From Bradyrhizobium sp. (GTDB lineage: Bacteria > Pseudomonadota > Alphaproteobacteria > Rhizobiales > Xanthobacteraceae): a DNA stretch of 64,000 nt. The stretch is taken from positions 39,004 to 103,003 of the forward strand of contig NZ_DAIDJE010000139.1 of NCBI RefSeq assembly GCF_027451485.1, read 5' to 3'. How positions within the stretch are numbered: position 1 is the first letter of the stretch; every line of letters starts with the position of its first letter. The notes below the pieces were generated by a model. The model was not told the DNA's origin. It did no database searches and saw only the letters and a program-made list of their open reading frames with translations. This document shows positions 9,465 through 12,345 of the stretch, piece after piece. The translations under genes were made by a program, and so were the position numbers.

Positions 9465-10541
9465 TCAAGCCTCAAGCGGCTCGTTCGACACGATCTCGAT
9501 GCCGAAGCCGGAAAGGCCTTTGTAGTCGTGAAGCGACGAGCTCAGGTTCCGGATCGATGTGACGCCAAGATCGCGCAGGATCTGTGCGCCGACGCCGACT
9601 TCGCGCCATTGCCTGTTGCGGTCGGCCTCCGCCGTCTGCTCTTCCGGCAAGGGCGCCACCGGAACGCCGGCCGCGCCGTCGCGCAAATAGACCAGAACGC
9701 CGCTGCCGTTTTTCCTGAACTGTTCCAGCACCGAGGTCATGAGTTTCGGTCCGGTGAAGATGTCCCGCACGATGTTCGGCTTGTGAAAGCGCGTCAGTAC
9801 GTTCTTGCCGTCGCCGATACCGTTGTAGACGAAGGCGACATGGGCGATGGAATCGAACGGCGAACGGTAGGCAAAGCCCTGCATCGGCCCGATCGGGCTA
9901 TCGGCGGTAAATGTCGAGACCCGTTCGATCAGCTTCTCGCGTGCCTGCCGGTAGGCGATCAGTTCGGCAATGGTGAGACGTTTGAGCTTGTGGGCCTTGG
10001 CGAACCGCGCCACCTGCTCGCCCTTCATCACCGAGCCGTCGTCGTTCATCAATTCGCTGATGACACCGACGGGCGGCAGGCCGCTCAGCCTGCAGAGGTC
10101 GACCGCGGCTTCGGTATGGCCCGAGCGGAGCAGCACACCGCCATCCCGCGCGATCAGCGGAAACACATGGCCGGGTCGGGCAAAATCGTTGGCGCCCACA
10201 TTCGGATTGGCCAGCGCCCGGCAGCAGGAGGCGCGCTCTTCCGCCGAAATGCCGGTGCCGCCGTCCGGCTTATAGTCGATTGAGACCGTAAATGCGGTGG
10301 TGTGGCTGGAGTCGTTGTGCGCCACCATGGGATCGAGCCGCAGGCGGCGCGCGTCTTCCGGCGTAATCGGTGCACAGACGATGCCGGAGGTGTGGCGAAT
10401 GATGAACGCCATCTTCTCCGCTGTACAGAGCGAGGCGGCGACGATCAGGTCGCCCTCGCCTTCACGGTCGTCATCGTCGGTGACAACGACAAGCTCTCCT
10501 TGAGCAAAGGCAAACAGAACTTCCTGAATTGGGTCGGCCAT
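9465..10541 (-). CDS. ribB: 3,4-dihydroxy-2-butanone 4-phosphate synthase with degenerate RibA-like C-terminus
   Basis: Riboflavin biosynthesis enzyme making the four-carbon unit from ribulose 5-phosphate. The N-terminal domain (about residues 1-200) has the acidic DDDDREGEGDL active-site loop and RSGHTEAAVDL. The C-terminal ~150 residues align in outline with GTP cyclohydrolase II but lack its three zinc-binding Cys residues; the usual nucleotide loop is replaced, while YKGLSGFGIEIV remains. RibA activity is therefore probably lost. Start at ATG 10541, following AAGAGA, one base after the stop of the small upstream ORF. An FMN riboswitch lies upstream, so expression should fall when FMN is high. 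Confidence 0.9.
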   Translation of the reverse strand: MADPIQEVLFAFAQGELVVVTDDDDREGEGDLIVAASLCTAEKMAFIIRHTSGIVCAPITPEDARRLRLDPMVAHNDSSHTTAFTVSIDYKPDGGTGISAEERASCCRALANPNVGANDFARPGHVFPLIARDGGVLLRSGHTEAAVDLCRLSGLPPVGVISELMNDDGSVMKGEQVARFAKAHKLKRLTIAELIAYRQAREKLIERVSTFTADSPIGPMQGFAYRSPFDSIAHVAFVYNGIGDGKNVLTRFHKPNIVRDIFTGPKLMTSVLEQFRKNGSGVLVYLRDGAAGVPVAPLPEEQTAEADRNRQWREVGVGAQILRDLGVTSIRNLSSSLHDYKGLSGFGIEIVSNEPLEA

Positions 10542-10542
10542 G

Positions 10543-10752
10543 TCAGGTCTCTTGAGATTCTTGCTGGAGGGATCGAGCATTTAGCCCGGCGGCAAGGCAC
10601 CTGCCAGCGCCATGACGCAGGGCGGACCTGCCCCGTACCTCAAAGACGGCGATCCCCCGCCCGGTAGCCAAGGGCAGGACACCAGCGGCAGATGGGCTCG
10701 CGAATTCGCCCTCCCGATTGGCTTCGACATATAGATATCGGGTGTGTGTCAC
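10543..10752 (-). CDS. 69-codon leader ORF between FMN riboswitch and ribB
   Basis: A GTG-initiated ORF with a strong Shine-Dalgarno (GGAAAGGAG) seven to eight bases upstream, in frame within the longer track ORF 10543..10797. Its TGA stop is separated by one base from the ribB ATG, an arrangement that allows translational coupling. The protein has no recognised domain. It may be a leader through which the riboswitch acts, or a chance ORF; codon-use analysis or comparative data would decide. Confidence 0.45.
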   Translation of the reverse strand: MTHTRYLYVEANREGEFASPSAAGVLPLATGRGIAVFEVRGRSALRHGAGRCLAAGLNARSLQQESQET

Positions 10753-10836
10753 AGCGATCTCCTTTCCGGTAACAGACACGTCACCCAAGGCGATCACGGG
10801 CGTGCCAGCCCTGCTTTTCCGCAGAGGCAGGCTCGC

Positions 10837-10980
10837 GCGTTCTCTTTCATCCGGACTTTCACCGTCGGCCCAGGCATCTCACCTGATCTGCTCGACCCTT
10901 CCTTGCAGGAAGGCGCTCGCGGGCTCGCAGCACGGGGGCTGCATACCGCCGGTAGGGATTTTCACCCTGCCCTGAGAACG
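10837..10980 (-). ncRNA. FMN riboswitch (RFN element)
   Basis: On the minus strand the sequence begins CGTTCTCAGGGCAGGGTG and ends GATGAAAGAGAACG, closing a P1 helix (CGTTCTC/GAGAACG). Conserved core blocks are present: AAAATCCCTACCGGCGGT, AGCCCGCGAGCG, GATCAGGTGAGATGCC and GACGGTGAAAGTCCGGATG. The distance to ribB is about 300 bases and no T-tract terminator follows, so control of translation is more likely than transcription termination. Confidence 0.93.
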
Positions 10981-11094
10981 GCTGCATGCTGCATCCCGGG
11001 AGGAAATACGTCAATGCCCAACTGGATGCGGCAGCTTGAGCAAGAGCTCACATCCTCTATGATCGTTTAAAACAAAAAGAGAGAGACCGCGCCC

Positions 11095-12345
11095 ATGACG
11101 GCAACCACCTTTGATTTTGCCCCGTTGCTTCCCTCGGGCCTGCCACCCGCTGCGGCAAGGTGGACGGGGCTGGCAAAATACAGCTTTGTCGGCGGCAACA
11201 ACGATCCGGAGCAGCTCCCGCTCACCGGGCTGATCGATGCGGTCAACGCCGTGATGCGGCGCGAGGGGCGGACGCTTGCAACCTATGGCCTCCAAAGCGG
11301 CCCGCAGGGGTATCTGGCTCTGCGCAAGTTCCTCACTGCGAAACTGAAACGCGACGCCGACATCTCCTGCTCTGCCGAAGACATCCTGATCGTTTCCGGC
11401 TCGCTCCAGGCACTCGATCTGGTGAACGCCACGCTGCTGGCCCGCGGCGATACCGTCATCATCGAGCGAGACACTTACCAGGGCGCTTTGAACCGCCTGG
11501 CGCGGCTTGGGATCAACACGGTCGGCATTCCGCTCGACCGGGACGGCATGCGGATGGATGCCCTCGCCGACGCGCTTGCCGATCTCAAACGCCGAGGCAT
11601 CACGCCGAAATACATCTACACCATCCCGACCGTGCAGAACCCGACCGGCACCATCATGCCGGAGACGCGGCGGCTCGAACTGCTCAGGCTTGCCGAGCAA
11701 TATGGCGTGCCGGTCTTTGAGGACGATTGCTATGCTGACCTGGCCTGGGACGGCAAGCGCCCGCCAGCGATTTACGCCATGAGCAAGACTGCCAACGTCA
11801 TCCATATCGGCTCATTCTCGAAATCGATCGCACCGGCACTGCGCGTCGGATTCATTGTCGCGCCGTGGGCCGCGCTGTCGCGCATCCTGCCGATGAAGAC
11901 CGATGCGGGCAGCGGCGCGCTGGAGCAGATGGTGCTTGCCGAGTATTGCGTGTCACATTTCGAGACGCATGTGCCGGCGCTGCGGCGCGGCCTGCGCGCC
12001 AAGCTCGACACGCTGATGGAAGCGCTCAACGAGCACTTCGGCACGGCGGCGGAATTCGAAGAACCGAAGGGCGGCATTTTCCTCTGGGTCAAGCTACCCG
12101 ACCATGTCGATACGATGAAGCTCTACCAAGCCGCGCTCGCCGCTGGCGTCTCGATCAATCCCGGCCCGGAATGGTCGACCGACAAGGCCTATGCGGGCAG
12201 CCGTTTGCGGCTGTGTTTTGCAAGCCCGACGCAGCAGCAGATACGTGAAGGCATCGCGACGCTCGCCGAGGTCTGCCGAAATGAGTTCGGTGTGCCGGCG
12301 CGCAGTTCGAACAAGGAGCTGCGCGCAGAAGCAGCTCCGCGATGA
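11095..12345 (+). CDS. PLP-dependent aminotransferase (class I/II, 2-aminoadipate/MocR-like fold)
   Basis: Fold-type I aminotransferase of 416 residues lacking the N-terminal HTH of MocR regulators. Visible features are TYGLQSGPQGYLALR, the PLP-site Asn/Pro in TVQNPTGT, Asp/Tyr in EDDCYADL, and the Schiff-base Lys in GSFSKSIAPALRVGF. Homologues are often annotated as 2-aminoadipate or aromatic aminotransferases. It ends four bases before the convergent amidohydrolase gene. The substrate is not determined. Confidence 0.88.
   Translation: MTATTFDFAPLLPSGLPPAAARWTGLAKYSFVGGNNDPEQLPLTGLIDAVNAVMRREGRTLATYGLQSGPQGYLALRKFLTAKLKRDADISCSAEDILIVSGSLQALDLVNATLLARGDTVIIERDTYQGALNRLARLGINTVGIPLDRDGMRMDALADALADLKRRGITPKYIYTIPTVQNPTGTIMPETRRLELLRLAEQYGVPVFEDDCYADLAWDGKRPPAIYAMSKTANVIHIGSFSKSIAPALRVGFIVAPWAALSRILPMKTDAGSGALEQMVLAEYCVSHFETHVPALRRGLRAKLDTLMEALNEHFGTAAEFEEPKGGIFLWVKLPDHVDTMKLYQAALAAGVSINPGPEWSTDKAYAGSRLRLCFASPTQQQIREGIATLAEVCRNEFGVPARSSNKELRAEAAPR

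Follow-up and report, generated by a model that had tools for sequence, protein, structure and literature searches.

The window analysed here, a 64,000-nt stretch of a Bradyrhizobium sp. contig (NZ_DAIDJE010000139.1), carries in succession an FMN riboswitch, a small open reading frame (ORF) and ribB, all three on the minus strand, as are all features of the window given below except the aminotransferase. The riboswitch aptamer (RFN element, RF00050; 10835..10983) was recognized from its sequence and structure with 108.8 bits (E 8.7e-26), the gathering cutoff being 66.2 bits. On its 5′ side, a promoter-like site of the form TTGACG-17 nt-CAGCAT (10986..11014) was recognized by eye only and missed by the promoter consensus scan; its TGACG and GCAGCAT elements are retained in most of six RFN-ribH or relic loci. 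The ORF (10752..10543) comprises 69 codons from a GTG at 10752 to a TGA at 10545..10543, its translation being VTHTRYLYVEANREGEFASPSAAGVLPLATGRGIAVFEVRGRSALRHGAGRCLAAGLNARSLQQESQET, and its stop lies one base before the ribB ATG at 10541. An alternative upstream GTG formally lengthens it to 84 codons, but it is the GTG at 10752, the one linked to a Shine-Dalgarno (SD) sequence, that is common to intact ribH genes. This SD, GGAAAGGAG (10759..10767, 6-nt spacer), is inherited from ribH, and its predicted pairing with the anti-SD amounts to −13.4 kcal/mol, as against −2.9 kcal/mol for the own site of ribB. The first-pass annotation, which had described a 69-codon ORF with one of the best SDs of the area between riboswitch and ribB and a stop one base from the ribB ATG, was thereby confirmed.

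The downstream gene ribB, also named ribBA (9465..10541), encodes a DHBP synthase with a GTP cyclohydrolase II-like domain (PF00926, 1.4e-78; PF00925, 5.5e-22) and is single copy in the window genome (G000), a 5.33-Mb assembly with one FMN riboswitch and two intact ribH genes. Gene callers could lengthen ribB by 13 codons from an in-frame ATG at 10580; the genus-conserved start is that at 10541. On the other side, the inserted segment is bounded by a divergent PLP aminotransferase gene (11095..12345, plus strand; PF00155). A terminator scan of the coding strand found no intrinsic terminator between the ORF start and ribB, the terminator-like calls on that strand corresponding to the 5′ arm of the sequestor hairpin described below and to 11102..11086, upstream of the riboswitch.

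Although the ORF had initially been viewed as a dedicated leader, comparison of loci instead gives good support to its being the remnant of a decayed ribH (lumazine synthase) gene fused with what was formerly the ribB leader. Intact ribH of a second type stands behind the same kind of riboswitch in another genome of the genus (G258) and in one of another genus (G081), with nearly identical spacer and SD (GTGATCGCCTTGGGTGACGTGTC..GTTACCGGAAAGGAGATC); in G258 the near-identical SD reads AGAAAGGAG. The window ORF opens with the same codons as these intact genes, and its first 44 codons (10621..10752) align without gaps to ribH codons 1–44, tblastn against the G258 ribH giving an E value of 6e-4. 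For the relics of two other Bradyrhizobium genomes, G327 and G275, tblastn gave 9e-7 against intact ribH and 2.7e-13 against the G081 RibH (61% identity over 51 residues), respectively, the G275 relic forming the bridge between the window ORF and intact ribH. From about 10620 on, the ORF matches the ribB leader found in relatives without a riboswitch at this place, its last 25 codons and stop (10543..10620) aligning with the region upstream of their ribB; this succession of matches, ribH codons 1–44 and then leader, identifies the ORF as a fusion of a ribH stub with the ribB leader. The gap between aminotransferase and ribB measures about 160 bp in four relatives with no riboswitch between the two genes (G159, G288, G257 and G161), versus 553 bp in the window. 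The origin is visible solely through such comparison of loci: the Pfam lumazine synthase family (PF00885) matched neither the window ORF nor the G327 and G275 relics, the full-length DMRL synthase domain is absent from the relics, and homology is confined to the first ~41–51 codons.

FMN riboswitches occur in 266 of 272 Bradyrhizobium genomes, and canonical ribH2 lay plainly downstream in 27 of the 30 loci read. In a family sample of 20 genomes with a riboswitch match, ribH followed the RFN element in 18 of the 19 loci besides that of the window, the remaining one giving no clear call. According to two position lists, more than 30 genomes have ribB and a riboswitch on one contig, separated by hundreds of kilobases. 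The genes behind riboswitches in other parts of the order are ribH, ribD-ribE clusters or EamA-like transporters, the second and third of these labels being judged by the look of N-terminal sequences rather than by family searches, and no RFN-ORF-ribB layout appeared among the best-scoring loci of 298 genomes (two unread). The ribH2 genes of G000, G327, G159, G257 and G288 (L022, L103–L106) have no detectable FMN riboswitch, unlike most of the genus; degenerate riboswitch remains were sought at the G000 ribH2 and none were found, and FMN riboswitches are missing altogether from G159, G257 and G288.

Among the 272 genus genomes, the tight riboswitch-ORF-ribB layout is found in one other species, G327, an independent assembly in which the arrangement is 86% identical to that of the window. 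In this genome (L090 6047-6142) only about the last 32 aminotransferase residues match, and the remaining gene appears deleted beside the riboswitch. A third genome, G275, carries riboswitch, relic and ribB in this order, the distance from the ORF stop to ribB being 1 nt in G000, 13 nt in G327 and ~220 nt in G275. This last genome has two further riboswitches, one followed by a 19-codon ribH relic that ends ~250–270 nt before a transporter gene and another preceding an intact ribH2. Since its first two cassettes have a common degenerate tail, one was probably copied from the other. The second cassette (L086 4014-5388, C154) precedes a transporter of the EamA family (PF00892), a 66% identical transporter being present in G284. 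Relatives closer to G000 than G275 is (G159, G257, G288 and G161) have no cassette at ribB. A literature search conducted mostly outside subscription papers found no account of FMN-riboswitch leader ORFs in Bradyrhizobium.

Folding predicts that the SD is covered by a sequestor hairpin of about −20 kcal/mol (10754..10797), the 5′ arm of which is invariant across the six loci. The motif CCTTCC of the aptamer, put forward in the first-pass annotation as the strand complementary to the SD, was ruled out in that role because it pairs with GGAAGG inside its own hairpin; the SD is better matched by the GATCGCCTT arm (10795..10787) directly 5′ of it. The candidate anti-sequestor is the P1 5′ strand, GUUCUCAGGGC (10969..10979), for which the best G000 fold with an open SD gives 10791..10780 as partner. 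When the SD was forced open, this strand paired, wholly or in part, with the hairpin 5′ arm GCCUUGGGUGAC in five of six homologous leaders. In these folds P1 and the sequestor are mutually compatible, and the anti-sequestor, which takes up the P1 5′ strand and the hairpin 5′ arm, competes with the two of them. These predicted folds, with SD-open and SD-closed states only 0.3–7 kcal/mol apart, suggest the logic of a classic FMN OFF switch; the helix pairs are mostly invariant, so that covariation lends them little support.

Comparison of G000 with G327 indicates which parts of the arrangement are retained. The aptamer has diverged by 5.6% and the sequestor plus SD by 2.2% (1 of 45 bases), whereas relic codons 11–44 have diverged by 26.5%, next to 25% at the 4-fold sites of ribB. 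Fisher tests set both the RFN element (p 5e-6) and the platform (p 2e-4) apart from the relic body, and did not separate the relic body from ribB 4-fold sites (p 0.89). Divergence reached 10% in ORF codons 1–10, 14.5% plus a 10-nt gap in the native leader, 22% in the linker and 40% in the 60 nt upstream of the aptamer. With aptamer and SD conserved and the relic body changing at the neutral rate, it is apparently the switch and the ribosome site, and not the peptide, that selection maintains, an argument that consists of a single pairwise comparison since the tight layout occurs in two species only.

The native leader portion of the ORF contains a promoter-like block, GCTGGC-17-GCTAAA (10580..10608), which is conserved upstream of ribB throughout the genus, the consensus reading CTGGCGC...CCGGCTAAT and the genus-wide form of the block being GCTGGC-17-GGCTAAT. 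In both G000 and G327 the block has an extra A (GGCTAAATGC for GGCTAATGC). It was missed by the promoter consensus scan; it may be the own promoter of ribB and might then let the gene escape the riboswitch. Other members of the genus manage without this upstream ORF, their ribB working from its weak native site. Parts of the block seem tandemly duplicated in G363 (L098, upstream of 5118) and in L047.

Our preferred explanation, to which we assign a probability of roughly 0.62, is that a riboswitch and ribH start established between aminotransferase and ribB left a stub that keeps the expression platform, and that ribosomes on this stub raise ribB expression. An FMN riboswitch with a ribH start would have come to occupy this intergenic region in a Bradyrhizobium lineage, and loss of the ribH body would have brought its 44 initial codons into fusion with the native leader of ribB, leaving a stub that retains the platform of the riboswitch. 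When FMN is bound, P1 would form and the hairpin at 10797..10754 would hide the stub SD; without FMN, the P1 5′ strand would pair with the hairpin 5′ arm and free it. Ribosomes translating the stub would then terminate just short of the weak ribB start, at a distance of 1 nt in G000 and 13 nt in G327, and reinitiate there, and/or would shield the nascent RNA from Rho, yielding more ribB. Reinitiation is made plausible by the predicted SD strengths of stub and ribB (−13.4 versus −2.9 kcal/mol). The ribH origin, the conservation pattern and the anatomy can be read directly in the sequence; the switching, the translation of the stub and the effect on ribB are our inference. In our judgement, ribB is the present target of the riboswitch, with reinitiation and/or polarity as putative routes. 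An earlier proposal had the switch hide the ribosome site of the ORF and so couple it to ribB. This idea is plausible and fits the finding that the SD, the natural target of the switch, is conserved under apparent selection, unlike the peptide. Against the coupling stand the variable spacing (1, 13 and ~220 nt) and the genus-conserved block inside the ORF, which could feed ribB independently. Both also weigh against our explanation in general, as do the restriction of the tight layout to two species, the weak native site from which ribB works elsewhere in the genus, and the small energy difference and scant covariation of the predicted folds.

A real leader peptide or small protein under sequence selection would account for the frame being open in both G000 and G327 and for the 174 nt compared being free of indels. 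Neutral simulation, however, keeps this frame open in 45–49% of runs, and ~22% of shuffles of this GC-rich DNA keep 61 codons open; the length of the ORF is therefore unremarkable and was discarded as a sign of coding. The dN/dS of the relic is 0.62, indistinguishable from 1 (p 0.22), as against 0.06 for ribB, and the differences between the two ORFs fall 8/12/15 over the three codon positions. These values bear no mark of peptide selection and led us to dismiss a sequence-dependent leader peptide, the peptide not being conserved and its body changing at the 4-fold rate. Between G000 and G327 the ribosome site is kept and the peptide is not; moreover, the frame is broken in G275, in which riboswitch and ribB persist, and intact in G327. 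All this makes a selected peptide very improbable. Rather less remote, though still unlikely, is that riboswitch and stub are a pure fossil irrelevant to ribB, the gene being driven by the native promoter inside the ORF: the GCTGGC-17-GCTAAA block is kept, the ribH body is decaying at the neutral rate, and two species only share the layout. Yet the RFN element and the sequestor with its SD diverge far less than the adjoining neutral body, which is unexpected if all were released together, and the block carries the extra A in these two genomes.

A narrower form of the preferred explanation holds that riboswitch and stub do respond to FMN and act on ribB solely via transcription (polarity/Rho), the position of the ORF stop being due to chance. 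It agrees with the unconserved spacing and with the second G275 cassette, whose stub ends well short of the transporter gene, and for E. coli the ribB riboswitch reportedly acts through Rho as well (PMC5234074). The predicted weakness of the ribB ribosome site, together with the fact that the stub reaches ribB in both close species, argues against this narrower form, and we regard control by polarity only as a possible, less favoured alternative to the explanation that includes reinitiation.

The aptamer, platform, SD and SD-sequestor logic are those of the alphaproteobacterial translational FMN riboswitch that precedes ribH, inherited from the RFN-ribH unit; here, instead, what the switch regulates is a stub of 44 codons, followed by ribBA as the first intact gene. 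The placing of a riboswitch ahead of a small reading frame that stops where the presumed target begins, at a distance that varies here between 1, 13 and ~220 nt among the three genomes, recalls the B12 riboswitch and translated uORF of M. tuberculosis ppe2, for which termination-reinitiation has been shown (Kipkorir et al. 2024, PMC11260477). The window differs in having FMN in place of B12 and a decayed enzyme gene as its ORF, and is known from sequence alone. With the E. coli ribB riboswitch, for which control of translation plus Rho is cited in PMC5234074, it has in common the FMN ligand, the ribB target and a possible contribution of Rho. Unlike that gene, the window ribB has, in addition, its own promoter-like block. 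To our knowledge, no ribH stub has been described for the E. coli ribB riboswitch.

Overall, the switch appears to have moved from ribH to ribB within the vitamin B2 pathway, the kind of control being a known one and the intermediate state unusual. The locus would provide a concrete intermediate for a change of riboswitch target, in which switch and SD persist under apparent selection while the original coding sequence decays between them and the new target, another gene in the pathway. More tentatively, the start region of a riboswitch-controlled gene might outlast the decay of that gene as an exapted leader ORF, passing FMN control to the next gene, and RFN-stub cassettes copied before other genes, such as ribB and the EamA-family transporter in G275, might constitute portable FMN-control modules. 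The findings also suggest an origin for riboswitch-controlled upstream ORFs, which may be relics of a former target gene.
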